A stretch of 64,000 nt of DNA, taken from positions 27,038,492 through 27,102,491 of the forward strand of contig NC_056004.1 in NCBI RefSeq assembly GCF_018446385.1, given 5' to 3'. The position numbers were made by a program, and so were the translations under genes. Shown piece by piece: positions 9,186-60,244 of this stretch. The notes below the pieces were generated by a model. It was not told where the DNA came from. It saw only the letters and a program-made list of their open reading frames with translations, and did not search any database. This stretch comes from Zingiber officinale (Eukaryota > Streptophyta > Magnoliopsida > Zingiberales > Zingiberaceae). Within the stretch, counting starts at the first letter, position 1. The number at the start of each line of letters is the position of its first letter.

Positions 9186-9189
9186 TACC

Positions 9190-12242: not shown

Positions 12243-12592
12243 CTTTACAGCCTCTATGCTCCGTTGCTGCTCCGATCACCTGGGTAATTACGACCAATCG
12301 AAATAGGACTCAGTCGAACCCAATTTTCGACCTTCTCCTCGAGCAGGCTTCCGCTCCGGCTTCTCGTCCCTCGAACGTCGCGCGTATTTTTCTCGTCCAT
12401 AGGTGTACTCTTCCGTAGCTTCTCGTCCCTCGAACGCTCCAAGCCCATCGGCTCTCTCTCTACCGTCCTTCTCGTTAGTCGCGTCTTCTACTCGACTTTC
12501 TGTGCTCCTTCACACTTAGACACAGGGATCAAAACCAAACAAGACCTAACCTAACTTAGTTGATCATATCAAAAAAACCATAGGATTTAACA
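12243..12592 (-). repeat. Truncated 3' LTR of the copia element
   Basis: About 350 bp closely similar to 15,229-15,590 (shared CTCTATGCTCCGTTGCTGCT and CTTCTCCTCGAGCAGGCT). Similarity stops at 12,243, so about 600 bp of the LTR and the flanking target duplication have been lost. The GGCGCC-rich block of the other LTR is absent. Confidence 0.85.
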
Positions 12593-30172: not shown

Positions 30173-31855
30173 CACCCACCCTTTAGTTTACTCTCCTAGA
30201 ATAAATTAACAAGATAAACAGGTGGAGAACGAGACAGAAAAGGAAGATTCTCCGGGGCGTTATTATTAGAATGTAGAATATTGCATCTCGGGCGATCCAC
30301 CAACACTTGCGGAATTAAGCAAACGCCAGGTGAATCGAGAGGAGCCAATGAGAAAGGAAGGAGAGAGGGGTACGCAAAGATTAATATAACATGGATGTTG
30401 TCCCTACGCAAGAAAATCTGGTTTAGTTTCACGACTCCAATCATTGATCCGTGAAACTGTTCCTGGTATACGCGTGCACTTTGGGATTGGAAGAAGCAGT
30501 TGTTTCAGTTGATCTGACACAGACAAAATGGCTGATATCTAAGTGATGCTTGCTTGATTGACTACATGAACGAATGCGATGTGTCGGCCAACCAGATGTT
30601 TTGACTAGTTGCCTCTGTTGGATTTCTTGTACGATTCCTTTTGTGTGGGCGTAAATGGGCCTGTCTAACCTACAATTTGGATTGAATTGGAAATTTTCCA
30701 ATCCGCTCCGGTCGAAGACGGGTTTGCCTACCCATCGCTCTCCTCTTTTGACAACACTAGAATTTCATCTTGCTTTCATCTTCATTTTCTGCTTTTTCTT
30801 TTTCTTTTTCTTTTACCTTTACGAAAGGTATTATCTTTATGTTTAATTGCTCTCGAGGATAATTAACTGTTTCACGGCATTCTTTCCCATTTTTTTTTTT
30901 GTGTTTTATTTATATAAACAATAAATAAAATGAATCAATATATATCAAACTATATATTATTATTATCTATCTGGTTATCCACAAATAAAATTTTCTTATT
31001 GAACTTTTAAAACGTTTCATTTTAAATTAGTTTATTTTTTAATGAAATAAAAATAAAATAAAATAAAATAGATTAAGGGCTGATGTAAACATATATTATA
31101 TTCATTATCCAATTTATTCCCAACAAGCTCTTGTGATACGCTGGTTCATGTGAGCCTTCCCATGGCATTGGCAAGAGATTAGAGCTTCAATACACGACGT
31201 TTGGGATTCTCTGCCGCAAATGTATCCTTTGTAGTTGGCCACTGTATTTCTTCACGGCGTCGACAGCTTTCAGCTATGCCCTTTGAATTATACTTTTTAA
31301 TTCACTCTTGATAGAGCAAACAAAAGTACTCTTCATTAAAAATGAAAAAGAAAAGAATAGAAAAAATGAAGAATAAAAATAAGTGAGAATGGTTTATTTT
31401 AAAAAATAATAATTAAAAGAATGTCCCACATTTAGTTTAACAAATCATCCTTTGTACGTCCCTTTTATAAAAACATCAATTGGATGTTATATCATATATT
31501 TTATCCTCAAAATATCTTTACTCTTAGTAATATTGACAATTATTAACTAGTCGCTATAAAAAAAAATAAAGTTCTTTTGATAAGTTAAGATAATTTTAAT
31601 AAAATTTAAATAATTTTGATAAATTGCTAAAAATATATTTTAATATAATAGTATTCAATATATAATAATTTTAATTAGAATGAAATATTAGCACCTATAA
31701 TAGCTGATATACTTTATAGTAATTAGTCCTAGTTATTATAATAGTGCTGAATTTTTTTTTTAAATAAAAATATATAATGAAATGTGTATTAATGATTTTT
31801 ATTGAAGGTTACTCATTTTTATGAATGAATGATGGTTTGTTGGCAATTTTTTATG
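30173..31855. other. Upstream region of the E3 ligase gene and intergenic DNA
   Basis: No gene found. A (TAAAA)n microsatellite lies near 31,045-31,070. The interval 30,200-30,700 is the likely promoter of the minus-strand ligase gene, with no TATA box I would trust. 30,850-31,855 is AT-rich. Confidence 0.5.
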
Positions 31856-31864
31856 CGTTCGAAC

Positions 31865-32035
31865 CAGCAGGGATCTCCTGGTCCGCAAATTGCGGACCAA
31901 GGGATGGTCCACTGATCTGGACCTTTGATTTGAATGGACCCCATCTTTAAATAAGTAGGGTTCATTCAAATCAAAGGTCCATGTGTAGTGGACCATCCCC
32001 TGGTCCGCAAATTACGGACCAGGAGATCTGCTCTC
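31865..32035. mobile_element. Mutator-type MITE copy 1 (171 bp) with 9-bp target duplication
   Basis: CGTTCGAAC flanks both ends (31,856-31,864 and 32,036-32,044), and 9 bp is the Mutator hallmark. The ends read CAGCAGGGATCTCCTGG and, inverted, GAGAGCAGATCTCCTGG. The interior is palindromic: GGTCCGCAAATTGCGGACC near each end and TTTGATTTGAATGGACC with its complement toward the middle. The end resembles the start of the large MULE at 32,126 (CAG, GGATC, CTGG, CC in the same order), so it may be a non-autonomous relative. A second copy is at 48,882. Confidence 0.85.
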
Positions 32036-32125
32036 CGTTCGAACAAGATACTTTAGGTTCCAATCTTTGATCAAATTGACAAAAAAAAAAATATGCTTAT
32101 GTGGCTTCCTGTATGTGTGCTAATT

Positions 32126-33100
32126 CAGTTTGGATCCTCTGGACCAGTTTTCCCTGGACCATCCCTGGACCACAAAACTACATTTAAAAGACTATCACGT
32201 GCATTGCGCGTGCACGTGGAAACACAACTCACGCAGCAACGCGCCCAAACACGAAGCCCTAACCTCTCGTCATCTTCCACCTCCGCGATCCGCCGGCGCC
32301 ATCTTCCACCTCGCCCAATCACTAACTTCTCGCCATCTTCCACCTCCGCTGTCCGTCGGCACCATCTTCCACCTCGCCCAAGGCCTAACCTCTTGCCATC
32401 GTCCACCTCCGCTATCCGCCGCCGCCATCGTCCAACTCGCCCACAAATTTCATAGCCCTAACCCCTCCCCGACGGCCTCTAGCGTCCCCGACGGCCTCCA
32501 GTGTCCCCGACGGCCTCCAGCGTCCCCGACTCACGCAGAGACCCACCGCGATCCGGCGACGACGACCAGCCCTACCCACGACCGACGACAGCCCAAGCTT
32601 TGTCGCCGTTTCTGCGTGAGGTCAACTGTTGGTGTGAACAACTTTGAGCTTTCCTTTAATTCTTCCTTATTTAATAGTTTGAATTCCAGATTTACAATTT
32701 CCCCAAACCAAAAGGCAGATCACCAATCTCAACGCAGAAACCAAAAGGCAGATTATTATAACTTGAACAAATTGAAAATTCTTGTAGAAAATAGAATATA
32801 GTTACAATTTTAGTTCATTTTAATGTTGAATTTGCTCATTTGATGTTGAATTTGTTCATTTTAATTCCCCAGCATGTAAGCACACTGTTGGTTCATCTGT
32901 CGATGTGAGCAACTTTTAGCTTTCTTTTTCATCTAATGTACTTAACTACGTGTTTCAGAGCTTATTTCAAAGTGGAACAGATTGAACTTTGAAGTTATAA
33001 TAATTGCTTAGGCATAATAACATATTGGAACTTTGAAGTTATAAATAAGCTTATTTCTTTGATGTTGATGTTGAAGTTATAAGAACAGATTGAAACTTGA
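32126..33100 (+). repeat. Left terminal inverted repeat of MULE copy 1
   Basis: About 975 bp matching the inverted complement of 40,262-41,187. The outer part is GC-rich and contains three tandem units of about 63 bp (32,258-32,450; each with CATCTTCCACCTCCGC or a variant). Four units of 19 bp follow (CCCCGACGGCCTCYAGYGT, 32,465-32,535). The inner part is AT-rich with repeated ACTTTGAAGTTATAA. The open frames here are products of the repeats. Confidence 0.8.
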
Positions 33101-33388
33101 TGATTGGAAATAATTTGAATTCAGAGTGCACCACTAGTTCAAGGCATAATATTGTTGAAGACATTAGACATAATAACTTTGAATTATGCATTGAACTAGT
33201 ATTGCACTCTGAATTCAAATTCAACATCAAGTACCAATCTGTACTCAACATCGAGTTACTTATGACATCAACTTTAAATTATAACTTTGAGCTTATTTTT
33301 TAAAAAAATTTATTTAGCATACAATCTATGAACATTAAAAAATATTTGGACTTAAGTAATTCTTATTTGCTTAATAGGTTGGTATTTC

Positions 33389-33526
33389 ATGGCATCATCA
33401 AGTTACAATTCCATCGACAATACAAAATTTGAACATATACCATGCAGGGACTGCAGACGAAGAACATTGGTATGTGTTTCTAGATCGAGCAAAAATCCCG
33501 GAAGGAGGTATTATCGATGTGGGTAG
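33389..33526 (+). CDS. Small GRF-type zinc-finger ORF in MULE copy 1 (45 aa)
   Basis: ATG at 33,389 opens a frame MASSSYNSIDNTKFEHIPCR... with the pattern CRDC at residues 19-22, then C33, then KNPGRRYYRC ending at C44, and a TAG after Gly45. CxxC...NPGRRYYRC is the signature of the GRF zinc finger, a nucleic-acid-binding module that in plants is often found in transposon ORFs. A full protein would normally continue after the finger; here the frame stops at once, so it may be truncated or be one exon. It is identical in copy 2 (42,456-42,593). Confidence 0.65.
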   Translation: MASSSYNSIDNTKFEHIPCRDCRRRTLVCVSRSSKNPGRRYYRCG

Positions 33527-33987
33527 CATGGCTGGCAAAAGTGGGTGGTAGCCGATACTTTATCTGATTAAGACAACAATGAAATATGTCGTGGAAGGTT
33601 AGGAAGAATAGAGTCAAAGTTAGGAAGTGAACCCATTTCTTCTCGTGGACATAATCTAGGAAATTCAAATATACCATCAGTGGTTTGGATATTAGTTATA
33701 GTGAATCTGACACTTTTGGTTGTTTACCTTATTACTTTGTTGGTTCGGTCTTGTTAATTAGTGTTGAGTAATATTGTTGTTGTAATATGACGGATTAACT
33801 ATTTGTAAGAACGAGCTGAAGGCTAATTGGTTTATTAGTTCAGGTGGTTAATTAGTGTTGACTAATATTGGTATTGTAATGTCATAGGATATTTAGTTTT
33901 TTTTGTTAAATGGATGTTGTGGAACGTGTTATATAATGGTTTGAAAATTTTGTAATGATTTATTCTATGTTGTTCTTCTTTCAGGAT

Positions 33988-34275
33988 TTAGTTCTCATCT
34001 CTGTAATGTTCATCAAGGGTTGATTGGTTCGCTTGTGTTGCAATGGTTGCTTGCTCAATCACAGCTCGAGAGTCAACAGACTTGGAAGCATCAAGCAGGA
34101 CAAACTCTCTTATAGAATCAAAACTATCGTACAGCAAGCTCTTCACCTCACCAAGTGCAACATTCAACTGACCGAAAACATTTGAGATCAACTGATGCTG
34201 CTTGCACTTGTTTCTAGAGTTGTGCCAAAATGTGTTTTTCTTCTTGGATCCATCTATGGAGAATATAGTGAACAT
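33988..34275 (-). other. Unassigned minus-strand ORF in MULE copy 1 (up to 95 aa)
   Basis: The frame contains KKKNTFWHNSRNKCKQHQLI and then an acidic, helical-looking tail ending LDEHYRDEN. It is conserved with one substitution in copy 2 (43,055-43,342). I do not recognise a family. It could be the last exon of a second MULE gene. A 22-bp unit (TTGATGTTGGAGGTACTAG core) is duplicated just upstream at 34,291-34,335. Confidence 0.3.
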
Positions 34276-34379
34276 GCACTCCAGATTGTCGATGTTGGAG
34301 GTACTAGTTGTTGATGTTGGAGGTACTAGTTGTGTTCAATGGCTTGTTTACTCTTGGGAATGATTTATCAATTTGTAGT

Positions 34380-35006
34380 TCACCAGAATAGTGACCAGGT
34401 AAGGCTGCAACTTTCCCAGTCGAATGAAGGTTGTTCTTTGGCTTCATTATCGGATCTAGTAGAAAGTTTTGAGGGACTTTGTCTACCTTTGCTATTCCTG
34501 GTTACTTGCTCTCCATGGGAATTGTACAGAAAATAGATCGACTCGAATAGTTCTTTAGATGAGCCAGCCTTCAAACTAGAACTCCTGCTCATCCTATTTG
34601 CTTCAGTGCTAGATGGATAAACTGTCGACTTCTTCCCTGCTGAAGCAATTGCTTTGGCTTCAAATTTTCTTAGTTTCTGGGTAGTACAAGACTCAAGTTT
34701 CTCACAAGAAGCACTAGGAATGCCCCCATTTCCTTAAACTGGTTTATCAGTTGGTGCCACACCTACTGATGGAACATTGCACGACACATCGGGTTCATGA
34801 TTCACAATGGCTAGAGGAAGCGGGCATGAGTGAGGAACCTCAGAAAATCTATAAATTATCTCAAAATCCTCAACCAGATTACCTGAATGGTTTTTGCTGT
34901 TTAACTCGTTTTGCCGGCAGTCAATGGTTATTGTAGATCTAGAACAAGGCTGTTTACCATCTGCACTATGTTGAAGGATTGTTCCATGCACAAAGATAAT
35001 GATCAA
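34380..35006 (-). pseudogene. Unidentified gene-like fragment with internal stop, MULE copy 1
   Basis: On the minus strand one frame runs from about 35,006 to 34,380 with a single stop near 34,735. It encodes a serine/lysine-rich protein segment including KLRKFEAKAIASAGKKS and NRMSRSSSLKAGSSKELF. Codon-like composition and conservation between the two copies suggest a captured host exon or a second element gene. I do not recognise it. Confidence 0.35.
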
Positions 35007-35589
35007 CCATCAGAGTAGATATTAAAATAACTCACATTCAATCTGAACACCTCATGAATACTTATTCCATTTATAGAGTTAAATTTGTCATTTTCTAGAA
35101 AGTCAAAAGATGAAGTTGTCAATCTTCAGAAACTAACAAGATTTTTCAAACAAATAGTAGACACATCTCCATTGCCAAAAGAGGAAGCTTTAAATGTTAA
35201 ATATATAGTTCAATCTCAGCGTTGTCTTCCATTTTCGATGTGGATCTATAGTAACAAGCATGAGGACCAGTTGGGCAAAAGCCAAATGACTCATAAAGCA
35301 TTTGGAACCTGTCAAGAAAGAAAATCATATCAATAAATTAACTAGCATTTCAAGTGCACATATAAATAAACATAGACACATACGAGATCGTTGATGTCTA
35401 AGGGGAGGAGGCCGCAGGAGGTAGTCCAGCAAACTGCACAAATGGGAATTGCACCTATAACAGTAAACAACTGTAAACTATTAAACAAATAAGCTAAAAG
35501 ACTAAATAGAAAAGGAACATGCATGTTCTTTGAACAACAAAGGCAAAGAAAGTTTGAATAACAATAATGCTTGGAGCCAACCTGCAAAA

Positions 35590-36000
35590 TCTCAAGAAAA
35601 AATCAATCAGATCTGCAATGACAAGAACAATGTAACAGCTGGATGAGAGATGTCAAAACTTTCTACCAATAATGCTGGAGGAAGCTGGAATATGGATAAT
35701 GCTAAAAAGGATAGTGTATGTTCTTGGGACAATAAAGAGAAAGGAAATAGTGACAATGATTGTTTGATTCAAGTTGCAAAACCTCAAAGGAAATGAAAGG
35801 GAAGTGGTGGTTTACAGAATAACTATGGGAAGAATTTTAACCAACAAAGAGATATTGATGGGACTACTCAAAGTAATTGGGGAAGAGGAAGAGGTCGAGA
35901 TGGCTCAAAGGGAAGTGGTGGTTTTAATGAAGTTGATAATGAGCAAACAGATGTTGGATTCATTAAATATCAAAGCTATCAAAACAAGCTTACCAACATA
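35590..36000 (+). pseudogene. WG/GW-rich fragment inside MULE copy 1, antisense to a transposase intron
   Basis: In one plus-strand frame the sequence reads as a Trp/Gly/Ser/Asn/Lys-rich chain with spaced tryptophans (GGSWNMDN, CSWDNKEK, SNWGRGRGRDG) ending in an RG-rich stretch. Such spacing is characteristic of Argonaute-binding (AGO hook) regions like the C-terminus of SPT5L/KTF1 or NRPE1; that match is inference. Copy 1 has a stop replacing Trp in the AGW motif (near 35,645) plus a TGA near 35,795. No start codon is in frame nearby, so it is a fragment and not a complete gene. Confidence 0.4.
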
Positions 36001-36285
36001 ACCAATAAAACCTCATCAACTTCTGATCAAAATAAATCATAGCTTTTTATTCAAAAGAGACAGTGTTTCTATAACTAAAATCCAACAATCAATAAGTAGT
36101 ATCTATTATAAATTTCAATCAGAATTAAAGAAATTTGTGATAACTAAGATGTATATATACCTGAGAAAGTTGTGATGCCAATAATGGTGGAAATTGAGTC
36201 TCAGTCATATTGAAACTACCAACAGAGCTACCAATTGTTGGCACAGAGTTTATAGGCTAAAACAAAAAATTAAAATACAATCTTA

Positions 36286-37650
36286 GGGGGGTGTATTCAA
36301 TGTTGGACTTTTAATTACTTTGAATGACTTTTATGGATTTTAAAAGTCTATATGTATTCAATCTAGACTTTTATAAACTCTATAGAAATCTAATGGTATC
36401 CAAATTGGATTTTTATAGAGTTTTAAAAAGTCATGTGGTATTCAAACACGACTTTTTAAAACTCCATGAAAATCTTTTGGTATCCAAAATTTTAATAGAT
36501 TTTCATGAATTCTTTTAGAATTCCTTGGATATAAATTTTAACCAATGAGAGCTCTCCAAAATACTTGGTACAAGTTTAAATATAAAATAAAAAGTTTTCT
36601 CCTCACCCTTGAGATTTCTATAGACTTCAAATCATTTTAATTTTTTTACGAATAAGTCCTTTCTCTTTCCGCTCCTCGATTTTGATTATTTCTTTGAGCC
36701 CCGTCCAGAGCCTACCAATACAATAGTATACAGTCCAACTTGACGCATATTCAACAAAGAATCTTCACCACCTTGATCAAATTTAACACTGTTCTCGATG
36801 TTATTCCTTTGCTACCTTGATCACATCGACGGTCTACCATAGAGATTACTTTAGGGGTGTGTTACCCTCTGTTACAAAACTAACCATACATATTTTTTTT
36901 TAACTTTATTATTATTATTATTTTGAATTTTATGCTTTGCTCTATTTTTTTTGTTTTTAAAGTTTACGTTTTTTTTTATTTATGTTTTTTTTGTAGTTTA
37001 TGTTTTTTTTTTTAAGTTTTGACTTTACGTTTTTTTAGTAAGTTTTTTTTAAAGTTTATGTTTTTTTCTTTACATTTTTTTTTTAAATTTACGATTTTTT
37101 TAGTTTATGTTTTTTTTTATTAGTTTACCGTTTTTTAATTTTTCTTTAATTTTTTTTAAAGTTTACAGTCTTTTTTAAAATAAAATTTTTAATATAAAAA
37201 ATTTGGTTTGTGCCGAATTGCATAATTTTCTTCGCAAGGAGTGTCGTTCTGATGAATTTCTAGTTGAACCAGATAATGAAGTTTCATCATCCTTATCAGA
37301 ACAAGTTCATAGTGTCGATTGCTTTGATCAATTATTTGATACTCAAGAACAACAACGAGCAAATGTCAATGCATGGAGAGATACAATAGCGGATCGAATG
37401 TGGAGTGATGTTTATCATATTGGCAATAACGAAACGAATTTTTCTTTCTCATAAATCCACAAGTTTCCATGAAAAAGTTTATAAAGGTCTGTAAAAGTCT
37501 TGCAAAAAAGTCTATAGAACTCCATAGAATTCTTTTCACAACTACGCGAGATTCCATACAAGTTAATAAAAATCAATCAACTCCACAAAAGTCTATCATT
37601 AAAAAAAAGTCAATGAAAGTCATTCAATCTCTTGATTGAATACACCCCCC
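36286..37650 (+). mobile_element. PIF/Harbinger element inserted in MULE copy 1
   Basis: Perfect 16-bp terminal inverted repeats GGGGGGTGTATTCAAT and TTA duplications at 36,283-36,285 and 37,651-37,653. The corresponding place in copy 2 (45,350-45,352) has a single TTA, which proves the insertion. The interior is AT-rich with long T-runs (36,895-37,200), repeated TTTTATAGA-like words near the ends, and a transposase tail (next entry). It is non-autonomous. Confidence 0.92.
37203..37454 (+). pseudogene. C-terminal fragment of a PIF/Harbinger transposase
   Basis: The frame contains CAELHNFLRKECRSDEF followed by an acidic linker and QQRANVNAWRDTIADRMWSD. This is the end of the Harbinger DDE nuclease (cd/DDE_Tnp_4 type), where A-LHNFxRKE and W-R-xxIAxxMW are conserved. 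The catalytic DDE core is missing, so it encodes no active enzyme. There is no ATG at its head; it begins inside the deletion scar. Confidence 0.75.
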
Positions 37651-40261
37651 TTAGATAGTTAAAACATAAATTATCTTATATTAACATAAATAAAACAAAT
37701 ACCAACTTGATGAATGATCCGGTCACATTGTACGCTGGCCACGCTGGAAATACTTTGATCTACACCCTGTGTTATAAAAAAATAGAATGATTTAAGTTAT
37801 TCGAATTTAACAACAAATAATACCAAATAAACAAAATTTGTGAAGTTATGGAATAGAAACCATTACAATTGTTGAAACTTGGTTTGTTTTCCTCGCTGCT
37901 TTTCTTTTCCTTGAAATCTTCTCTAACCCACCTTCAACCTCTTACCTGACACCATTTTTTTCTTCATTCTAATCCCTTTCACTCCAGTAGAGTTCCCTTC
38001 ACCATAATCAAATTCCCAGGATGCTTGGCTCATATTTGATTGTTGGACATTTGATTCATTACCTTGTAACTTATCATCCACTATCTTACACAAGCTCAAC
38101 ATAACATCTTTAACAAACATGTAAGTGTCATCCCTTTTTGTTGCCTTGGTAACCAATTAAACATTCAACCCACACAACTCTTTGTAACGCATGTTTTGAA
38201 GTACTTTTGGATCCAAACTAGCATTGTTGGCCATTGAATCATTAACTCCAAAATATCCAATTTTTGCTTTTCTTGTCCACCTTTTCAATACATAATCACT
38301 TGGGATCTTTATGATTTTTTTCACGTAAATATTTTCAGAATATGAGAATACAAAATTTCAGCAAATTCATATTTTCTACAGCTACACTCAATTTTTTCAC
38401 ACTTCTTATCAAGTGTAACTATATGATGATTTTTCTTTTTGTGAGGAGTAACTTTATATGTTGTAAATGTATCAACATCCTGACAAATTTCTAGATTAGA
38501 ATCATGAGATAAGCACTACTCTTGTTGAAAACACTTGTATACCTCAGGAGTATAAATTTCACTAGCATGCTTTAAAATCTCAATTGGAAACATTAAATAG
38601 GGAACAATTATATTTGATTTGAAATCAGCTTTTAATTCCTCATATCGACGATCATTAAGAAGTCTTTGGAAGTTACTGAAGAAGTCTAAAAACTTGTGTT
38701 TATAAGTGACATACTTTTTCACAATACTATTCATGCTCTCACTTCTTTGGGTTGTAGTCATATCCTCACAAAACATTTGTCGTCCATATACTAAAGCCCA
38801 TTTTTCCTTGATGTTGTACATGCGCCTCAACCAATCATTGTCTTCAAGTGCATACTTGGCTAATATCATGTTCCATGCTGAAATAAAATCTTCCTCTTTA
38901 TCAAAATCATATATACATGAGGCAAAATCTTTAGCAAAGTCTCTAAACATAGAAAAAAGTCCGTTCAAATGTATGACATCATTTTGATAAATATGCCAAA
39001 TGCACAAACGATGATGTGTTTCAGGCCATCTGGAAGTTAACGCCTTTGCCATTGCTGCTGCATCTTGATCTGTAAAAATAGTAGTTGGCTTTTTCTCACC
39101 CATAGATCTAGTAAATGTATCAAATAACTACTCAAAAGTCAAATTGGTTTCATCATATAATAAAGCGGCACCAAAAAAGTATGAATTGTTTATGATGATT
39201 AACACCTACAAACAATGCAATTGGCCGACCTTCATTGTTCTTTCTGTAGGTTGTCAAAACAAACATCTCCAAAATTAGCATAATCAGCTCTCATCTTAGC
39301 ATCAGACCAAAAAATATTAGTAATCAAATCATCTTCATCAACTTGGATAGCATAAAAAAAATTAAGATCATTGAACTGCATTTTCTGTAGATATTCCAAT
39401 ACACCCCCTGTATCCCCAACTCTCATATTTATTGTTCTTTTGGATCACAAGTAGTTTTTATAATCCTCAGGAATAAATCTTAAATTCTCCCTCCCACCTA
39501 CTTGCCTCACCATAAGATCATAAGATGCTTTTGGGGGGATTCCCACATCACCTGCCATCTCAATCTGTATCGCTGCAGAAGAAGATATATTCCTATGACT
39601 TCTATAGAGGTGCGTTTTGTTTGGACTTGAGAGATAATGATTATGCTCTTTAACAAACTGCACCATAGTAAACTTGTTTTTTTCCGATTACAAATCTTCA
39701 TTTTAGCCTCACAACTAAACTTTGTTTCATCACGACTTGCTTTGACATAAAGATCTCGTTTGTCTTTTTCTCTTTTACCTTGGGCACAACAATAAAAAAT
39801 CCTATCAAGTAATTTATCCGATTCATCCTTGTGGATTCTATCTCTCCTTACACCAAATCAAACCTTTTTAGCATATGCCAAATAAAATTGATATGCATCT
39901 TCTTCTATCTCAAATTCCAATCCCATTTGTGGTATATCCAAATCTGTTTCAATGTTCAAGCCTACATAATCAAACAAACAAAGCAAGATGGCTAAAAAGG
40001 AAAATTTGATATACTGAATCTCAATACATTCCCAATATGATTCTTATTACTTTCGTCAATGACATCAAAGTCACCATCTAGAATATCTTCATTTCCTTCA
40101 AAATTCAAATGACGACAACTTGTAGATTCACCCTCCATAATAATTACTTTGATCCTATAATAAAATTATATTTAGGGTAAAAAAAAAATAGTCATAAAAG
40201 AAGCATCTAAAAACAACATCAAAGAAATAATTAAGCTTATTTAACATCAAAGAAGCATCTA

Positions 40262-41187
40262 ATTCAACATCAAGTTCCAATTTATTCTTATAACTTCAAC
40301 ATCAACATCAAAGAAATAAGCTTATTTATAACTTCAAAGTTCCAATATGTTATTATGCCTAAGCAATTATTATAACTTCAAAGTCCAATCTGTTCCACTC
40401 TGAAATAAGCTCTGAAACACGTAGTTAAGTACATTAGATGAAAAAGAAAGCTAAAAGTGCTCACATCGACAGATGAACCAACAGTGTGCTTGCATGCTGG
40501 GCAATTAAAATGAACAAATTCAACATTAAAATGAACTAAAATTGTAACTATGTTCTATTTTCTGCAAGAATTTCTAATTTGTTCAAATTATAATAATCTG
40601 CCTTTTGGTTTCTGCGTTAAGATTGGTGATTTGCCTTTTGGTTGGGGAAATTGTAAATCTGGAACTCAAACTATTAAATAGGGAGGAATTAAAGGAAAGC
40701 TCAAAGTTGTTCACACCAACAGTTGAACTCACGCAGAAACGACGACAGAGCTTAGGCCGTCGCCGGTCGCGGGCAGGGCTGGTCGTCGTCGCCGTCGGAT
40801 CGCGGTGGGTCTCTGCGTGAGTCGGGACGCTAGAGGCCGTCGAGGAGGGGGTTAGGGCTCTGAAATTTGTGGGCGAGTTGGACGATGGCGTCGACGGACA
40901 GCGGAGGTGGAAGATGGAGAGAGGTTAGGGCTTGGGCGAGGTGGAAGATGGCGCTGGCGTACAGTGGAGGTGGAAGATGGCAAGAGGTTAGTGATTGGGC
41001 GAGGTGGAAGATGGCACCGACGGATCACGGAGGTGGAAGATGGCGAGAGGTTAGGGCTTCGCGTTTGGGTGCGTTTTTGCGTGAGTTGTGTTTCCACGTG
41101 CACGCGCAATCCACGTGATAGCCTTTTAAATGGAGTTTTGTGGTCCAGGGATGGTCCAGGGGAAACTGGTCCAGAGAATCCGAATTG
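40262..41187 (-). repeat. Right terminal inverted repeat of MULE copy 1
   Basis: Inverted complement of 32,126-33,100 with roughly 85-90% identity by eye. It has lost some of the 19-bp units. Together with the left repeat of copy 2 it forms a giant inverted repeat centred near 41,190. Confidence 0.8.
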
Positions 41188-41192
41188 GTGCC

Positions 41193-42167
41193 CAGTTTGG
41201 ATCCTCTGGACCAGTTTTCCCTGGACCATCCCTGGACCACAAAACTCCATTTAAAAGACTATCACGTGCATTGCGCGTGCACGTGGAAACACAACTCACG
41301 CAGCAACGCGCCCAAACACGAAGCCCTAACCTCTCGCCATCTTCCACCTCCGCGATCCGCCGGCGCCATCTTCCACCTCGCCCAATCACTAACTTCTCGC
41401 CATCTTCCACCTCCGCTGTCCGTCGGCACCATCTTCCACCTCGCCCAAGGCCTAACCTCTTGCCATCGTCCACCTCCGCTATCCGCCGCCGCCATCGTCC
41501 AACTCGCCCACAAATTTCATAGCCCTAACCCCTCCCCGACGGCCTCTAGCGTCCCCGACGGCCTCCAGTGTCCCCGACGGCCTCCAGCGTCCCCGACTCA
41601 CGCAGAGACCCACCGCGATCCGGCGACGACGACCAGCCCTACCCACGACCGACGACAGCCCAAGCTTTGTCGTCGTTTCTGCGTGAGGTCAACTGTTGGT
41701 GTGAACAACTTTGAGCTTTCCTTTAATTCTTCCTTATTTAATAGTTTGAATTCCAGATTTACAATTTCCCCAAACCAAAAGGCAGATCACCAATCTCAAC
41801 GCAGAAACCAAAAGGCAGATTATTATAACTTGAACAAATTGAAAATTCTTGTAGAAAATAGAATATAGTTACAATTTTAGTTCATTTTAATGTTGAATTT
41901 GCTCATTTGATGTTGAATTTGTTCATTTTAATTCCCCAGCATGTAAGCACACTGTTGGTTCATCTGTCGATGTGAGCAACTTTTAGCTTTCTTTTTCATC
42001 TAATGTACTTAACTACGTGTTTCAGAGCTTATTTCAAAGTGGAACAGATTGAACTTTGAAGTTATAATAATTGCTTAGGCATAATAACATATTGGAACTT
42101 TGAAGTTATAAATAAGCTTATTTCTTTGATGTTGATGTTGAAGTTATAAGAACAGATTGAAACTTGA
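41193..42167 (+). repeat. Left terminal inverted repeat of MULE copy 2
   Basis: Nearly identical to 32,126-33,100 (a handful of substitutions seen) and inverted relative to about 47,950-48,881. Contains the same 63-bp and 19-bp tandem units. Confidence 0.8.
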
Positions 42168-42455
42168 TGATTGGAAATAATTTGAATTCAGAGTGCACCA
42201 CTAGTTCAAGGCATAATATTGTTGAAGACATTAGACATAATAACTTTGAATTATGCATTGAACTAGTATTGCACTCTGAATTCAAATTCAACATCAAGTA
42301 CCAATCTGTACTCAACATCGAGTTACTTATGACATCAACTTTAAATTATAACTTTGAGCTTATTTTTTAAAAAAATTTATTTAGCATACAATCTATGAAC
42401 ATTAAAAAATATTTGGACTTAAGTAATTCTTATTTGCTTAATAGGTTGGTATTTC

Positions 42456-42593
42456 ATGGCATCATCAAGTTACAATTCCATCGACAATACAAAATTTGAA
42501 CATATACCATGCAGGGACTGCAGACGAAGAACATTGGTATGTGTTTCTAGATCGAGCAAAAATCCCGGAAGGAGGTATTATCGATGTGGGTAG
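42456..42593 (+). CDS. Small GRF-type zinc-finger ORF in MULE copy 2 (45 aa)
   Basis: Same 45-codon frame as at 33,389, with the CRDC...C...NPGRRYYRC finger intact and TAG following. No substitution was seen between the two copies. Function within the element is unknown; binding of single-stranded nucleic acid is the family expectation. Confidence 0.65.
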   Translation: MASSSYNSIDNTKFEHIPCRDCRRRTLVCVSRSSKNPGRRYYRCG

Positions 42594-43054
42594 CATGGCT
42601 GGCAAAAGTGGGTGGTAGCCGATACTTTATCTGATTAAGACAACAATGAAATATGTCGTGGAAGGTTAGGAAGAATAGAGTCAAAGTTAGGAAGTGAACC
42701 CATTTCTTCTCGTGGACATAATCTAGGAAATTCAAATATACCATCAGTGGTTTGGATATTAGTTATAGTGAATCTGACACTTTTGGTTGTTTACCTTATT
42801 ACTTTGTTGGTTCGGTCTTGTTAATTAGTGTTGAGTAATATTGTTGTTGTAATATGACGGATTAACTGTTTGTAAGAACGAGCTGAAGGCTAATTGGTTT
42901 ATTAGTTCAGGTGGTTAATTAGTGTTGACTAATGTTGGTATTGTAATGTCATAGGATATTTAGTTTTTTTTGTTAAATGGATGTTGTGGAACATGTTATA
43001 TAATGGTTTGAAAATTTTGTAATGATTTATTCTATGTTGTTCTTCTTTCAGGAT

Positions 43055-44074
43055 TTAGTTCTCATCTCTGTAATGTTCATCAAGGGTTGATTGGTTCGCT
43101 TGTGTTGCAATGGTTGCTTTCTCAATCACAGCTCGAGAGTCAACAGACTTGGAAGCATCAAGCAGGACAAACTCTCTTATAGAATCAAAACTATCGTACA
43201 GCAAGCTCTTCACCTCACCAAGTGCAACATTCAACTGACCGAAAACATTTGAGATCAACTGATGCTGCTTGCACTTGTTTCTAGAGTTGTGCCAAAATGT
43301 GTTTTTCTTCTTGGATCCATCTATGGAGAATATAGTGAACATGCACTCCAGATTGTCGATGTTGGAGGTACTAGTTGTTGATGTTGGAGGTACTAGTTGT
43401 GTTCAATGGCTTGTTTACTCTTGGGAGTGATTTATCAATTTGTAGTTCACCAGAATAGTGACCAGGTAAGGCTGCAACTTTCCCAGTCGAATGAAGGTTG
43501 TTCTTTGGCTTCATTATCGGATCTAGTAGAAAGTTTTGAGGGACTTTGTCTACCTTTGCTATTCCTGGTTACTTGCTCTCCATGGGAATTGTACAGAAAA
43601 TAGATCGACTCGAATAGTTCTTTAGATGAGTCAGCCTTCAAACTAGAACTCCTGCTCATCCTATTTGCTTCAGTGCTAGATGGATAAACTGTTGACTTCT
43701 TCCCTGCTGAAGCAATTGCTTTGGCTTCAAATTGTCTTAGTTTCTGGGTAGTACAAGACTCAAGTTTCTCACAAGAAGCACTAGGAATGCCCCCATTTCC
43801 TTAAACTGGTTTATCAGTTGGTGCCACACCTACTGATGGAACATTACACGACACATCGGGTTCATCATTCACAATGGCTAGAGGAAGCGGGCATGAGTGA
43901 TGAACCTCAGAAAATCTATAAATGATCTCAAAAATCCTCAACCAGATTACCTGAATGGTTTTTGCTGTTTAACTCGTTTTGCCGGCAGTCAATGGTTATT
44001 GTAGATCTAGAATAAGGCTGTTTACCATCTGCACTATGTTGAAGGATTGTTCCATGCACAAAGATAATGATCAA
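43055..44074 (-). pseudogene. Unidentified gene-like fragments of MULE copy 2
   Basis: Counterparts of 33,988-35,006 in copy 1: the 95-codon frame at 43,055-43,342 and the serine/lysine-rich frame at 43,447-43,804. The further upstream part carries an extra base near 43,931, so it is frameshifted relative to copy 1. Family not recognised. Confidence 0.3.
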
Positions 44075-44465
44075 CCATCAGAGTAGACATTAAAATAACT
44101 CACATTCAATCTGAACACCTCATGAATACTTATTCCATTTATAGAGTTAAATTTGTCATTTTCTAGAAAGTCAAAAGATGAAGTTGTCAATCTTCAGAAA
44201 CTAACAAGATTTTTCAAACAAATAGTAGACACATCTCCATTGCCAAAAGAGGAAGCTTTAAATGTTAAATATATAGTTCAATCTCAGCGTTGTCTTCCAT
44301 TTTCGATGTGGATCTATAGTAACAAGCATGAGGACCAGTTGGGCAAAAGCCAAATGACTCATAAAGCATTTGGAACCTGTCAAGAAAGAAAATCATATCA
44401 ATAAATTAACTAGCATTTCAAGTGCACATATAAATAAACATAGACACATACGTGATCGTTGATGT

Positions 44466-47400
44466 CTAAGGGGAGGAGGCCGCAGGAGGTAGTCCAGTAA
44501 ACTGCACAAATGGGAATTACACCTATAATAGTTAACAACTGTAAACTATTAAACAAATAAGCTAAAAGACTAAATAGAAAAGGAAAATACATGTTCTTTG
44601 AACAACAAAGGCAAAGAAAGTTTGAATAACAATAATGCTTGGAGCCAACCTGCAAAATCTCAAGAAAAAATCAATCAGATCTGCAATGACAAGAACAATG
44701 TAACAGCTGGATGGGAGATGTCAAAACTTTCTACCAATAATGTTGGAGGAAGCTGGAATATGGATAATGCTAAAAAGGATAGTGTATGTTCCTGGGACAG
44801 TAAAGAGAAAGGAAATAGTGACAATGATTGTTTGATTCAAGCTACAAAACCTCAAAGGAAATGAAAGGGAAGTGGTGGTTTACAGAATAACTATGGGAAG
44901 AATTTTAACCAACAAAGAGATATTGATGGGACTACTCAAAGTAATTGGGGAAGAGGAAGAGGTCGAGATGGCTCAAAGGGAAGTGGTGGTTTTAATGAAG
45001 TTGATAATGAGCAAACAGATGTTGGATTCATTAAATATCAAAGCTATCAAAACAAGCTTACCAACATAACCAATAAAACCTCATCAACTTCTGATCAAAA
45101 CAAATCATAGCTTTTTATTCAAAAGAGACAGTGTTTCTATAACTAAAATCCAACAATCAATAAGTAGTATCTATTATAAATTTCAATCAAAATTAAAGAA
45201 ATTTGTGATAACTAAGATGTATATATACCTGAGAAAGTTGTGATGCCAATAATGATGGAAATTGAGTCTCAGTCATATTGAAACTACCAACAGAGCTACC
45301 AATTGTTGGCACAGAATTTATAGGCTAAAAAAAAAATTAAAATACAATATTAGATAGTTAAAACATAAATTATCTTAGATTAACATAAATAAAACAAATA
45401 CCAACTTGATGAATGATCCGGTCACATTGTATGCTGGCCACGCTGGAAATACTTTGATCTACACCTTGTGTTATAAAAAAATAGAATGATTTAAGTTATT
45501 CAAATTTAACAACAAATAATACCAAATAAATAAAATTTGTGAAGTTATGGAATAGAAACCATTACAATTGTTGAAACTTGGTTTGTTTTCCTCGCTGCTT
45601 TTTTTTTCTTGAAATCTTCTCTAACCCACCTTCAACCTCTTACCTGACACCGTTTTTCTCTTCATTTTAATCATTTTCACTCCAGTAGAGTTCCCTTCAC
45701 CATAATCAAATTCCCAGGATGCTTGGCTCACATTTGATTGTTGGACATTTGATTCATTACCTTGTAACTTATCATCCACTATCTTACACAAGTTCAACAT
45801 AACATCTTTAACAAACATGTAAGTGTCATTCCTTTCTGTTGCCTTGGTAACCAATTGAACATTCAACCCACACAACTCTTTGTAACGCATGTTTTGAAGT
45901 ACTTTTGGATCCAAACTAGCATTGTTGGCCATTGAATCATTAACTTCAAAATATCCAAATTTTGCTTTTCTTGTCCACCTTTTCAATACATAATCACTTG
46001 GGATCTTTATGATTTTTTTCACGTAAATATTTTCAGAATATGAGAACATAAAATTTCAGTAAATTCATATTTTCTATAGCTATACTCAATTTTTTCACAC
46101 TTCTTATCAAGTGTAACTATATGATGATTTTTCTTTTTGTGAGGAGTAACTTTATATGTTGTAAATGTATCAACATCCTGACAAATTTCTAAATTAGAAT
46201 CATGAGATAAGCACTACTCTTGTTGAAAACACTTGTATACCTCAGGAGTATAAATTTCACTAGCATGCTTTAAAATCTCAATTGGAAACATTAAATAAGG
46301 AACAGTTATATTTGATTTGAAATCAGCTTTTAATTCCTCATATCGATGATCATCAAGAGGTCTTTGGAAGTGACTGAAGAAGTCTAAAAATTTGTGTTTA
46401 TAAGTGACATACTTTTTCACAATACTATTCATGCTCTCACTTCTTTGGGTTGTAGTCATATCCTCACAAAACATTTGTCGTCCATATACTAAAGCCCATT
46501 TTTCCTTGATGTTGTACATACGCCTCAACCAATCATTGTCTTCAAGTGTATACTTGGCTAACATTATGTTTCATGCTGAAATAAAATCTTCCTCTTTATC
46601 AAAATCATATATACATGAGGCAAAAACTTTAGCAAAGTCTCTAAACATAGAAAAAACTCCATTCAAATGTATGACAGCATTTTGATAAATATGCCAAATG
46701 CACAAACGATGATGTGTTTAAGGCCATCTTGAAGCTAACGCCTTTGCCATTGCTGCATCTTGATCTGTAAAAATAGTAGTTGACTTTTTCTCACCCATAG
46801 CTCTAGTAAATGTATCAAATAACCACTCAAAAGTCAAATTGGTTTCATCATATAATAAAGCGGCACCAAAAAGTATGGATTGTTTATGATGATTAACATC
46901 TACAAATAATGCAATTGGCCGACCTTCATTGTTCTTTCTGTAGGTTGTCAAAACAAACAACATCTCCAAAATTAACATAATCAGCTCTCATCTTAGCATC
47001 ATACCAAAAAATATTAGTAATCAAATCATCTTCATCAACTTGGATAGCATAAAAAAAATTAGGATCATTGAACTGCATTTTCTGTAGATATTCCAATACA
47101 CCCCCTGTATCCCCAACTCTCATATTTATTGTTCTTTTAGATCGCAAGTAGTTTTTATAATCCTCAGGAATAAATCTTAAATTTTCCCTCCCACCTACTT
47201 GCCTCACCATAAGATCATAAGATGCTTTTGGGGGGATTCCCACATCACTTGTCATCTCAATCTGTATCGCTGCAGAAGAAGATATATTCCTATGACTTCT
47301 ATAGATGTGCGCTTTGTTTGGACTTGAGAGATAATGATTATGCTCTTTAACAAACTGCACCATAGTAAACTTGCTTTTTTCCGATTACAAATCTTCATTT

Positions 47401-47835
47401 TAGCCTCACAACCAAACTTTGTTTCATCACGACTTGCTTTGACATAAAGATCTCGTTTGTCTTTTTCACTTTTACCTTGGGCACAACAATAAAAAATCCT
47501 ATTAAGTAATTTACCCGATTCATCCTTGTGGATTCTACCTCTCCTTACACCAAATCCAACCTTTTTAGCATATGCCAAATAAAATTGATATGCATCTTCT
47601 TCTATCTCAAATTCCAATCTCATTTGTGGTATATCCAAATCCGTTTCAATGTTCAAGCCTACACAATCAAACAAACAAAGCAAGATGGCTAAAAAGGAAA
47701 ATTTGATATACTGAATCTCAATACATTCCCAATATGATTCTTATTACCTTCGTCAATGACATCAAAGTCACCTTCCAGAATATCTTTATTTCCTTCAAAA
47801 TTCAAATGACGACAACTTGTAGATTCACCCTCCAT
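44466..47835 (-). pseudogene. FAR1/FHY3-related MULE transposase gene, copy 2 (broken)
   Basis: Same gene layout as copy 1: ATG at 47,835, intron donor GTAATAAG, FAR1-type domain (AKKVGFGVRRGRIHKDES, here without the stop seen in copy 1), then the MULE core with TIFTDQDAAMAKALASRW. The 3' exons end at 44,466. It shares with copy 1 the A-run frameshift (near 47,382) and the 2-bp deletion after CFD (near 46,950). Its SWIM region has lost the first two cysteines (EYSYRKYEF) but keeps the last Cys-x-His (LCSH), the reverse of copy 1. Not functional. Confidence 0.8.
44638..45069 (+). pseudogene. WG/GW-rich fragment inside MULE copy 2
   Basis: Less damaged version of 35,590-36,000: AWSQ, TAGWEMSK, GGSWNMDN, CSWDSKEK, then one stop at 44,862-44,864, then SNWGRGRGRDG. 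The Trp missing in copy 1 is intact here. The frame extends upstream to about 44,598 without an ATG. Resemblance to an AGO-hook region is inference from composition. Confidence 0.4.
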
Positions 47836-47949
47836 AATAATTACTTTGATCCTATAATAAAATTATATTTAGGGTAAAAAAACAGTCATAAAAGAAGCAT
47901 CTAAAAACAACATCAAAGAAATAAGCTTATTTAACATCAAAGAAACATC

Positions 47950-48881
47950 TAATTCAACATCAAGTTCCAATTTATTCTTATAACTTCAACATCAACATCA
48001 ACATCAACATCAAAGAAATAAGCTTATTTATAACTTCAAAGTTCCAATATGTTATTATGCCTAAGCAATTATTATAACTTCAAAGTCCAATCTGTTCCAC
48101 TCTGAAATAAGCTCTGAAACACGTAGTTAAGTACATTAGATGAAAAAGAAAGCTAAAAGTGCTCACATCGACAGATGAACCAATAGTGTGCTTGCATGCT
48201 AGGGAATTAAAATGAACAAATTCAACATTAAATGAACAAATTCAACATTAAAATGAACTAAAAATTGTAACTATGTTCTATTTTCTGCAAGAATTTCCAA
48301 TTTGTTCAAGTTATAATAATCTGTCTTTTGGTTTCTACGTTAAGATTGGTGATTTGCCTTTTGGTTTGGGGAAATTGTAAATCTGGAACTCAAACTATTA
48401 AATAGGGAGGAATTAAAGGAAAGCTCAAAGTTGTTCACACCAACAGTTGAACTCATGTAGAAACGACGGCAGAGCTTGGGCCGTCGCCGGTCGCGGGCAA
48501 GGCTGGTTGTCGTTGCCATCGGAATGCGGTGGGTCTTTGCGTGAGTCGGGGACGCTGGAGGCCGTCGGGGAGGGGTTAGGGCTTTGAAATTTGTGGGCGA
48601 GTTGGATGATGGCGCCGACGGACAGCGGAGGTGGAAGATGGAGAGAGGTTAGGGCTTGGGCGAGGTGGAAGATGGCAAGAGGTTAGTGATTGGGCGAGGT
48701 GGAAGATGGCACCGACGAATCATGGAGGTGGAAGATGGCGAGAGGTTAGGGCTTCGCGTTTGGGCGCGTTTTTGCGTGAGTTGTGTTTCCACGTGCACGC
48801 GTAATGCACGTGATAGTCTTTTAAATGGAGTTTTGTGGTCCAGGGATGATCCAGGGGAAACTAGTCCAGAGATCCGAACTG
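47950..48881 (-). repeat. Right terminal inverted repeat of MULE copy 2
   Basis: Inverted relative to 41,193-42,167. It has fewer 63-bp units than the left repeat and an expanded (ATCAAC)n tract near 47,985-48,012. Confidence 0.75.
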
Positions 48882-49052
48882 CTGCAGGGATCTCCTGGTC
48901 CGCAAATTGCGGACCAGGGGATGGTCCATTGATCTGGACCTTTGATTTGAATGGACCCCATCTTTAAATAAGTGGGGTTTATTCAAATCAAAAGTCCACA
49001 TGTAGTGGACCATCCTCTAGTCCATAATTTGCGGACCAGGAGATCTGCTCCC
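48882..49052. mobile_element. Mutator-type MITE copy 2 (171 bp), abutting MULE copy 2
   Basis: Same length and palindromic structure as 31,865-32,035 (GATCTCCTGGTCCGCAAATT at the left end). It begins at the base after the MULE terminus and shows no 9-bp duplication. It may have inserted at the MULE end or be part of a composite boundary. Confidence 0.75.
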
Positions 49053-49910
49053 CCAATTAACTCTTACGGATTGACACAGTTATAAAAACTAATTAGGTCT
49101 AAGTAATATTGAATCTGATGGATGGTCAATTCAATCATAAAAACTTTTCAGCGACCATTATAATAATAAATAAGTGCACATAGATGTCTATCTATTCTCA
49201 GGCTACTATTCGTTAAAAGGAAAATATTTAATAATACACTTGTCCCTTAATTTATTACTCGAGGGGTTAGCATAGTGAAAATTATATATATATATGGATG
49301 ATTGCTCTAATAATCGGTGTTTGGATAATCGGATGGATTTGGATAAAATCTAAGTAAAAAATATTATAAAAATATGTTAATTTAGACCCGACCCAAATTT
49401 AAAATCCTAAATTTGAATTCATCTGAATAATTCATCCAACCTGAAATATTTTTTTATATATTTTTTATAATTCTTTATTTTTTAATATTTTATCATTATT
49501 ATATTAACATTATTATTTATATTTATAAAATATTTTAATTTTAAAAATAAAATATAATTTAATTCTAAAAAATTCAGAAAATTTAAATTGGAGCCTAATC
49601 CAAATCTAAACCAATTAAAAAAAAAAATCCCTTCAACCCGACTCGGATCGAATTGACGGTCAGGTCCATTTTTACAGCCCCACTTCTAGCGTGATCACCA
49701 ATCACCACTGGTTTTTTTTTCTCTCTCACGTGCGGTCACGCCATTGGTACCTACGCTGCAATTCAATTCGAACTAGAATAGAATATTAAACATTCGCCAC
49801 CTCCACCGTCACCGCTTCCTTCCCACCTCCTCGAATCTTATTTCTATTTGGGGGAACGCTCCAGAAGAAAGCGAAGGATCAGGGAACCGGGAGCGAAGGG
49901 AGATCCAGAG
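49053..49910. other. Upstream region and 5' UTR of the Sec14-like gene
   Basis: An (AT)n run sits near 49,286. The stretch 49,300-49,680 contains GACCCGACCC-like words and their partial complements and may be an old transposon. The likely promoter and leader lie at about 49,690-49,910, with no clear TATA box. Confidence 0.5.
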
Positions 49911-58900: not shown

Positions 58901-60244
58901 TTATACATTGGCTACTCATGGATATGGTCAAATCTAGGGCTAGTGTTTTGACTAGGTAGTGCTTGAACCCTCTACAACAACAATAAGAATATGCTCTGAG
59001 TCACATCTATCCAAAGTCAACTACATGCATTTTATCTCTATGTGGCAATATGCGGCTACATCAAGGGTGCATAAAAAATTACATAGAATAACAATAAACT
59101 GCAGATGATGCACAAATAATCATTTGAAGAATTATTATAGTGGATATTTTTTTTTTAAAAAAAAAGAAAAGTTGTTCATTGAATATCAATAAACTACCGG
59201 AGTGCACATATGATTTACCCTTACTAAATAATTGAAATTCTGCATATGATAGTGAATTACACACGGGTTCTTTAATTGATAATCTACTAGCTATAAGTAT
59301 TATTTGTTGATATAAATATTTAATATAAAATTTAAATTGTTAAAATATTTTTGATAATTGTTAGTTTGCTAAACCTAAATCGTATCTATATATATTTTCC
59401 TAGCATATCTACCCATATTTCAAGTCTCTTTGCTAGAGATGTGAGCTTTACAGCTACGCAATTTTAAGTTTGTTTCTGGCATTGCATCTTATTTCTCTTG
59501 ATAAAAAATTTTCTGTGGCAATATGTATAACCAATGAACTTTTTGCAGATTGCTTGATAAACGATTCCAACCCAAAGTCTTCATTATCAAAATTCCTTGC
59601 GCTAGCGATGGGAGCTGTTGGCAATTTCGTTATGAAATTGCTTGCCATTTTCTTTTTGTTCTTTGGGTTGAAAAATGGACGTTTCGGCAATAGAAATGTC
59701 CAGTCATCGGGTCATCATGGGATAGAGCCAACCAATGAGAATTCCATGAACAACTTGATTTATCACGATGCCGCAGAAGAAGACCCTATCCTACCGTGCA
59801 TGGAGAAATTCCAGAAGCTTGATCAATTAATTGACTTAGACATGGAACCTATGGGGATTTCTGAAGAAAATGGTGGCGTTTTTGTAGATTCACCAAATAG
59901 TTTGGAATCTCTAAAGCATGAGTTACTGGAAGAAAACAATGTGAGTGCTTTTTAGTTGTTATTTGAGAAGTACATCTTGGCAGACTATTATGGATTTTTG
60001 CAGGTTACACGAGAGACCTCAGAAAAGCAAATTCAAGTTTCAGATGCAAGAATCACAGGAGACATCAACAGACGTTCCAGTAGAAGAAGGTTCCTTTTAG
60101 CTTTGATAATGTCCTAAAATGAGCATTAGGCTGACACTTTTCCTTTCTGATGATCTCGCTTTGCTGATTTATATATGCAGAGCAAGTCTTTCTAAATTGA
60201 GGAGCACAATTAGTTCTTGGAGGATGACTTACAGATGTTCTTGA
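49911..60244 (+). CDS. SFH: Sec14-like phosphatidylinositol transfer protein (13 coding exons, 573 aa)
   Basis: Binds and presents phosphatidylinositol/phosphatidylcholine to lipid kinases at membranes (SFH family). Exons: 49911-50128, 54619-54718, 55429-55695, 55784-55861, 55951-56052, 56120-56169, 56271-56370, 56459-56533, 56627-56737, 58613-58691, 59549-59940, 60004-60089, 60181-60244; all GT-AG and phase-consistent. Order: acidic run (residues 35-43), CRAL-TRIO N domain (about 45-105, [27 protein letters not shown]), Sec14 lipid-binding lobe (about 107-285; [42 protein letters not shown]). Then comes a low-complexity linker and a hydrophobic segment (about 409-434, [11 protein letters not shown]) like that of SFH proteins, and a basic C-terminus. 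The C-terminal nodulin coiled coil of long SFH proteins is not evident. The start is the first ATG in frame with the conserved domain. The 4.5-kb first intron contains repeats. Confidence 0.9.
52670..53150. repeat. GGGTTGGG/CCCAACCC-rich repeat block in the intron
   Basis: Contains GGGTTGGGTTGGG immediately followed by CCCCAACCCAACCC (52,766-52,806), repeated GTGAGCCC, and later CCCAACCCGATGGACCCAACCC. The block is flanked by variant direct repeats (AGCCATTCTTGGGAATG and AACCATACTCGGATAAGG). It looks like a degraded transposon, class unknown. Confidence 0.4.
54046..54084 (+). repeat. SINE-like short repeat fragment
   Basis: CAACAACAACAACAACCAAG followed by CCTTATCCGACTAGGG. I know this phrase as a dispersed plant short repeat (typical form ...CCTTATCCCACTAGG...). 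Only the fragment is present, with no A or B box. Confidence 0.35.
56738..58612 (+). other. Intron 9 of the Sec14-like gene
   Basis: 1.9 kb, AT-rich, donor GTTAGT and acceptor GTCGCCAG. No gene or classified repeat seen. Confidence 0.6.

Follow-up and report, generated by a model that had tools for sequence, protein, structure and literature searches.

The class of structure considered here, in which a transposon or part of it is repeated side by side, is already represented by Mutator-like elements (MULEs) with extra terminal inverted repeats (TIRs), by end-to-end arrays of MULEs and by tandem duplications linked to Ac/Ds elements. MULEs with multiple or tandem TIRs were described by Ferguson and Jiang (2012, PMC3310237), with a recombination origin left open; they are mostly non-autonomous, and an element carries either tandem extra TIRs at each of its ends (types 1-2) or one solo extra TIR (types 3-6). 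The SaTar arrays of guayule and rice consist of unrelated non-autonomous MULEs at microsatellites (PMC5907723). Reversed-ends transposition of Ac/Ds acts on two elements lying close together through their reversed termini; host DNA is duplicated in the process, and an 8-bp target-site duplication (TSD) is left behind (PMC3744419). Mu killer is a rearranged maize MULE that contains inverted TIR and transposase sequence and silences its own family; a long hairpin has been proposed for it, but short antisense transcripts were found and not proof of the hairpin (PMC3440606). In the present work we describe two complete MULEs standing head-to-tail and separated by five bases in ginger (Zingiber officinale), within a window of 64,000 nucleotides (C19:27038492-27102491; all positions below are those of the window), and we compare them with the homologous site on the other haplotype, C20 (stretches L009-L011), which carries a single copy. 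The pair was noticed by a model which read the letters of the window alone, and whose claims are referred to below as the original prediction. The analysis makes it probable that the pair arose by local tandem duplication of a dead resident MULE on one haplotype, with the exact end of the element joined to a trimmed TSD, and that gene conversion followed.

The ginger dimer resembles the MULEs of Ferguson and Jiang in having more than two long TIRs and, with the qualification given below, an outer TSD with no full TSD at the internal TIRs, but differs from them in consisting of two complete 7.7-kb units for which a single-copy allele is known. The tandem external and internal TIRs at both ends of one element that mark types 1-2 are not found in it: each TIR pair of the dimer encloses its own complete internal region. 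The likeness in the TSD is ambiguous: the outer TSD is changed and split by a miniature inverted-repeat transposable element (MITE), and the internal TIRs are separated by a partial TSD. With the SaTar arrays it shares MULEs that lie end-to-end, not nested, and flanks unfit for plain cut-and-paste transposition (PMC5907723), but its units are close copies of one element, two sister copies which share one TSD, and neither the junction flanks nor the spacer is microsatellite; the junction between the right TIR of copy 2 (R2) and the adjoining MITE, which joins different elements, is of the SaTar-like sort. Like the product of Ac/Ds reversed-ends transposition (PMC3744419), it is a transposon-linked tandem direct duplication in which sister chromatids may have been involved; unlike that product, it has a counterpart on C20 with one element, and no host DNA beyond five TSD bases is duplicated. 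Mu killer duplicates part of mudrA (PMC3440606), whereas the palindrome at the centre of the ginger dimer comprises, in the DNA sequence, only the right TIR of copy 1 (R1) and the left TIR of copy 2 (L2). The literature searched contained neither a tandem dimer of full-length long-TIR MULEs nor a long-TIR element duplicated as a unit within the TSD of its insertion, a result by which absence is not proven. Tandem structures of long terminal repeat (LTR) retrotransposons reportedly occur in plants as well (PMC11899658), but these belong to another class of element.

The arrangement that had been read from the letters, two long-TIR MULEs in direct tandem with a GTGCC spacer and an offset of 9,067 bp, agrees with both the coordinates and the alignment of the copies. 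Its origin can be approached through C20; the ginger assembly is haplotype-resolved, with 11 chromosome pairs (PMC8342452). C20 can be aligned to the window over 30002-31012 and 31391-31867 to the left of the dimer and over 49053-51000 to its right, and the flanks of the two haplotypes differ at 31/997 and 66/1,933 positions respectively, i.e. by 3.1-3.4%. At this site C20 has one MULE copy with GTGCCAATT directly on both sides, a perfect 9-bp TSD, and the element there therefore represents one ordinary insertion. On C19, copy 1 is preceded by GTGCTAATT; the spacer GTGCC matches the first five bases of the TSD, a match expected by chance from composition with probability 0.0004; and beyond copy 2 a 171-bp MITE is followed by CCAATTAACTC, which is the last six bases of the TSD with the same flank as on C20. 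Because the left sequence, the spacer and the right remnant are all pieces of the TSD, the whole dimer sits within the TSD of one insertion. A TSD scan of C19 found no full 9-bp duplication, the best pairs having 6/9 matches, a level which random pairs reach too. The original prediction that no 9-bp duplication is visible at any junction is thus correct for full duplications on C19, but the comparison with C20 identifies the spacer and the outer flanks as TSD pieces, and the hidden duplication which had been named as a sign of two ordinary insertions does exist and points to one insertion.

The assignment of the element is based on its TIRs, which are 920-977 bp long and 85-88% identical, as in long-TIR MULEs, on the 9-bp TSD around the C20 copy, and on a minus-strand transposase of the FAR1/MULE type (PF10551, E 1e-9, in copy 1; PF03101, E 6e-13, in copy 2) which is 83% identical to the ginger protein P0001. 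The transposase is not intact, as alignment to P0001 reveals stops and frameshifts that break both copies. The two C19 copies and the single one on C20 have four inactivating changes in common, three frameshifts and one stop. Three of these changes occur in none of the four relatives examined (L012-L015), and the fourth occurs in L014 but not in L012, L013 or L015. The differences between copy 1 and copy 2 fall on codon positions 1, 2 and 3 in the ratio 27/22/17 (747 codons), and therefore indicate neutral decay after the death of the gene. The relatives, by which the terminus of the element is defined, start with CAG and finish with CTG, and a perfect 9-bp TSD is present in three of the four, which amounts to two independent cases, as L012 and L013 share one; L014 is without one. 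L012 and L013, full-length relatives which lie 33 kb apart on C13, share their near flanks in addition to the TSD and for this reason look like a segmental duplication, not two insertions.

The relationship among the three copies was evaluated with trees and with counts of informative sites. A tree of 1,079 aligned bases sets the two C19 copies and the C20 copy apart from six relatives with support of 100. With the relatives as outgroup, and with 4 variable columns dropped in which the outgroups disagree, the transposase pieces contain 7 informative sites which unite copy 1 with copy 2, 1 which unites copy 1 with C20 and 2 which unite copy 2 with C20, and the corresponding counts in one left piece are 15, 1 and 0. 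The sisterhood of the two C19 copies is supported at 86 by the right half and at 100 by the left half, and a right-half tree which places copy 2 outside copy 1 and C20 is rejected by the approximately unbiased (AU) test (p 0.019). The branch lengths, 0.0127 and 0.0173 for the two copies, 0.0162 for C20 and 0.0027 for the internal branch, would date the duplication roughly to 0.85-0.9 of the age of the haplotypes.

The alignment of the two copies, 7,650 bases long, contains 142 substitutions, and the copies are further distinguished by the private insert of copy 1 and several private indels, but the substitutions are not evenly distributed. When the copies were aligned for a divergence profile, as the original prediction had proposed, the near-identity it had claimed was found in the left half (34 substitutions in 4,155 sites, about 0.85%) and not in the right half (108 in 3,495, about 3%), where divergence is near that of the haplotypes. 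By segment, the first 1.6 kb has 3/1,600 substitutions, the next 1.6 kb 14/1,600, the stretch at 35326-36287 17/955, the transposase part 76/2,606 and the right TIR 32/889. Uniform divergence is rejected (Kolmogorov-Smirnov p 2e-12), and a single change-point yields a log-likelihood gain of 32.4, compared to a maximum of 8.6 in 500 permutations. Private changes follow the same division: in the left half (4,097 sites) there are 15 in copy 1, 19 in copy 2 and 105 in C20, while in the right pieces combined (3,486 sites) there are 42, 63 and 64 (Fisher p 3e-11 for the contrast). On the best reading of these numbers the left halves were made alike by later gene conversion, the leftmost 1.6 kb far later than the duplication. 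A comparison for exchange between left and right TIRs on C20 produced a mixed signal.

The sequence of events which we favour can be set out as follows. A single insertion of a FAR1-type MULE at GTGCCAATT would have preceded the split of the ginger haplotypes, by which time the transposase gene of the element would already have been non-functional; the single copy on C20 would represent the older state. In the C19 lineage the resident element would then have doubled in place, a chromosome end consisting of the element and the first five bases of the right TSD being joined to a second copy which starts exactly at its left terminus, to produce the order TSD-element-GTGCC-element-TSD. This was most likely a break-repair event between sister chromatids, a sister being the presumed partner because neither copy is clearly closer to C20. 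Transposase acting in trans from relatives, which would be needed because the element's own gene is dead, may have cut the dead element; one broken end may have been restored by copying from the sister across the element and five TSD bases, and the restored end may then have been end-joined to the cut element terminus. Homogenisation of the left halves, the splitting of the right TSD by a MITE and the entry of a Harbinger-like element into copy 1 would all have come later. At the junction GTGCC is joined to the exact left terminus CAG, and the bases next to the breakpoints mismatch (C vs T before, A vs C after), so that the junction looks like the product of blunt end joining. The combination of an exact left terminus with a break five bases past the right terminus argues for breaks made by transposase, since random breaks would rarely fall there. 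In rice, transposon excision mostly leaves deletions or filler, with 8 of 94 events perfect (PMC4423477).

Several observations weigh against this scenario. The junction has no microhomology that would mark a template switch, and the involvement of transposase is argued indirectly, from the position of the junction. The support for sisterhood of the C19 copies in the right half is modest, and the Kishino-Hasegawa (0.076) and Shimodaira-Hasegawa (0.079) tests fail to reject copy 2 outside copy 1 and C20; the tree which unites copy 2 with C20 is likewise not rejected (AU 0.17). In the 1,079-base piece with six relatives the support for copy 1 with copy 2 is just 56, and copy 2 is 97.1% identical to C20 as against 96.5% to copy 1. 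In addition, the genome query with the right part of copy 2, for which the best 40 of 547 candidates were scored, did not return the right TIR of C20, although that TIR is present there; the query may likewise have passed over a further locus.

One alternative is that the dimer predates the parting of the haplotypes and that on C20 recombination between its direct copies removed one of them. Such a collapse would leave one copy with intact outer TSDs, as is found on C20, and it could draw on both the AU value of 0.17 and the closeness of copy 2 to C20 in the 1,079-base piece. Over the whole transposase pieces, however, divergence from C20 is 2.7-2.9% for copy 1 and 3.0-3.5% for copy 2, and the informative sites favour the pairing of the C19 copies by 7 to 1 and 2. 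We regard the collapse as unlikely, and as a shade less probable than another local process which is also improbable, namely unequal exchange or replication slippage between the 9-bp TSDs, which would give element-GTGCCAATT-element with AATT lost later. This process would likewise leave a TSD between the copies and would account for a spacer that is a TSD prefix, but it requires recombination within 9 bp of homology as well as a deletion that stopped exactly at the element terminus, the present spacer retaining 5 of the 9 bases. Recombination between the inverted repeats, suggested by the original prediction, inverts DNA and does not duplicate it in direct orientation, and can be set aside. 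Replication-based amplification, also suggested there, belongs to the class of explanations that survives, the pathway itself being conjectural. A route through an excised circle, closed with five TSD bases as filler and then joined by homologous recombination to the copy carried by the sister chromatid, is very unlikely: circular MULE forms with filler have been proposed for end-to-end MULE arrays (PMC5907723), but none was seen, two events would be needed, and the filler would not have to be a TSD prefix.

The possibility that two members of the family arrived independently side by side and had their TSDs trimmed depends on whether close relatives exist elsewhere in the genome. A genome query with the TIR, in which the best 40 of 243 candidates were scored, is a better test for a third locus than the right-part query. 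Among the matches listed, full-length matches at >=85% come only from the C19 and C20 sites, with all six TIRs represented (C20 by two long matches at 89%, one of which reaches into the left flank), and the others are partial, at <=370 bases. Matches longer than 1 kb were listed by the right-part query for copy 1, C20 and at least 37 further loci; the transposase of these further loci is 91-95% identical, and their TIR pieces are short (<=296 bases among the matches listed). These loci testify to a once mobile family and so lend the idea of independent insertions some plausibility, but the three copies form a group apart from six relatives with support of 100, the full-length TIR matches among those listed are confined to the C19 and C20 sites, the AU test disfavours copy 2 as an outsider (though the other two tests do not reject it), and the spacer is the resident copy's own TSD. 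Independent insertion is therefore highly improbable. The original prediction had rightly judged the pair to be unlike two independent transpositions, as one TSD encloses the dimer and the trees disfavour a second arrival; its suggestion that one copy inserted into the terminus of the other is disfavoured by the trees and by the TIR query. A related candidate, in which a hot spot received copy 1 in GTGCTAATT beside an older MITE and copy 2 in the 12 bp between them, was rejected because C20 has no MITE and its TSD at this site is GTGCCAATT. An assembly error, a false duplication or misjoin, is equally improbable; long inverted repeats are hard to assemble, but a false haplotype duplication would bring its flank along, the copies differ by the substitutions, insert and indels given above, and the junction falls exactly at an element end and inside a TSD. 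The proposed search of the assembly for other single copies and arrays brought to light the C20 copy and no second tail-to-head junction: a genome pattern for canonical ends tail-to-head within 15 bp, which misses ends deviating from it, had one match, the dimer junction itself, though the reversed control also had one match.

If the duplication in place that we favour is correct, one plant holds both the single insertion with its TSD and the doubled form, and the recombination origin of MULEs with extra TIRs (PMC3310237) thereby becomes directly testable. The locus suggests that a missing TSD is a poor criterion for recombination, because the outer TSD persists when a duplication lies between the TSDs. 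It also suggests that a transposon whose own transposase is dead can increase in number with no new insertion, and that subsequent gene conversion can lend one end of the two copies a more recent appearance than the other. A wider proposal, which is doubtful but worth stating, is that dimerisation in place is a regular by-product of abortive MULE excision, in which transposase acting in trans on a dead element would produce, on sister chromatids, units of the order TSD-element-(trimmed TSD)-element-TSD. If this were true, such dimers could move as one unit, because their outer TSDs are kept, and dimers followed by internal deletion would yield the multi-TIR MULEs whose origin was left open. 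The central palindrome of R1 and L2 is 1.9 kb long with a 5-base centre (863 of 981 columns identical, 65 gapped); if transcribed it is a possible source of silencing, and palindromes of this kind could, by analogy with what has been proposed for Mu killer, seed silencing across a family.

Features of the dimer and its immediate flanks (positions in the window)
Feature	Positions	Strand	Description	Basis
MULE copy 1	32126..41187	+	9,062 bp, including a 1,365-bp Harbinger-like insert	self-BLAST, alignment
Left TIR of copy 1 (L1)	32126..33102	+		self comparison
Right TIR of copy 1 (R1)	40268..41187	-		self comparison
Spacer GTGCC	41188..41192		first five bases of the 9-bp TSD	
MULE copy 2	41193..48881	+	7,689 bp	self-BLAST, alignment
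Left TIR of copy 2 (L2)	41193..42169	+		self comparison
Right TIR of copy 2 (R2)	47958..48881	-		self comparison
Broken FAR1/MULE transposase gene, copy 1	37709..40150	-		PF10551; alignment to ginger protein P0001
Broken FAR1/MULE transposase gene, copy 2	45408..47847	-		PF03101; alignment to P0001
Harbinger-like insert in copy 1	36286..37650		1,365 bp	16-bp perfect terminal inverted repeat
Left TSD GTGCTAATT	32117..32125		one change from GTGCCAATT	comparison with C20
Left MITE	31865..32035		own 9-bp TSD CGTTCGAAC at 31856-31864 and 32036-32044	empty on C20
Right MITE	48882..49052		171 bp; abuts R2, splits the right TSD, absent from C20	boundaries by comparison with the left MITE
CCAATT	49053..49058		last six bases of the right TSD, then AACTC as on C20	

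The Harbinger-like insert is bracketed by TTA at 36283-36285 and 37651-37653, and copy 2 has the empty site; no Pfam match was obtained for a reading frame in it, and its class therefore follows from its ends and TSD. The MITEs on the two sides of the dimer are of one family and neither is present on C20, where the site of the left MITE is a single CGTTCGAAC, duplicated around the MITE in the window. The right MITE stands directly against R2 without a 9-bp duplication of its own. A scan for MULE/MITE terminal motifs scored 14/20 at 31865 and 13/20 at 48882, and also 15/20 and 14/20 at 55828 and 59898, and supports no claim. The C20 copy is interrupted by two inserts with direct terminal repeats, at relative positions 8060-12288 and 13136-19678 of L009-L011, whose repeats are about 1.1 and 1.6 kb long and 93% and 92% identical; the window has neither insert. 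About 380 bp to the left of the dimer (31013-31390) are present in the window and missing on C20, the aligned blocks overlapping briefly, and form a further haplotype-specific insertion or deletion.

Among the best 120 of 1,089 protein matches to the transposase, 12 are annotated ginger proteins of this family, candidate sources of transposase for the dead element; Impatiens, Salvia and Coffea lead after ginger, their matches covering most of the query at 54-67% identity, and other monocots stand at 40-46%. Horizontal transfer and patchy loss are candidate readings of this distribution. The left half of the element contains a plus-strand frame (42423-42590 and 44574-45107) with a resemblance to the GRF zinc ribbon PF06839 at 18 bits, below the cut-off of 25.9, and a W/G-rich stretch which may resemble WG-repeat silencing proteins. 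This frame is possibly a captured host fragment; a protein search with the left half for a captured gene, from which proteins much longer than the query were left out, found none.

An SFH9-like phosphatidylinositol transfer gene (49911-60241, +) begins about 1 kb to the right of the dimer; of its 11 blocks, 6 match the ginger protein P0121 at 100% and the remainder at 65-93%. With the dimer and MITEs beside it on C19, and a single copy with two LTR-type inserts on C20, it is a candidate for allele-specific expression. Elsewhere in the window, self comparison reveals a cluster of overlapping direct repeats at 9201-9860, mostly 70-75% identical.

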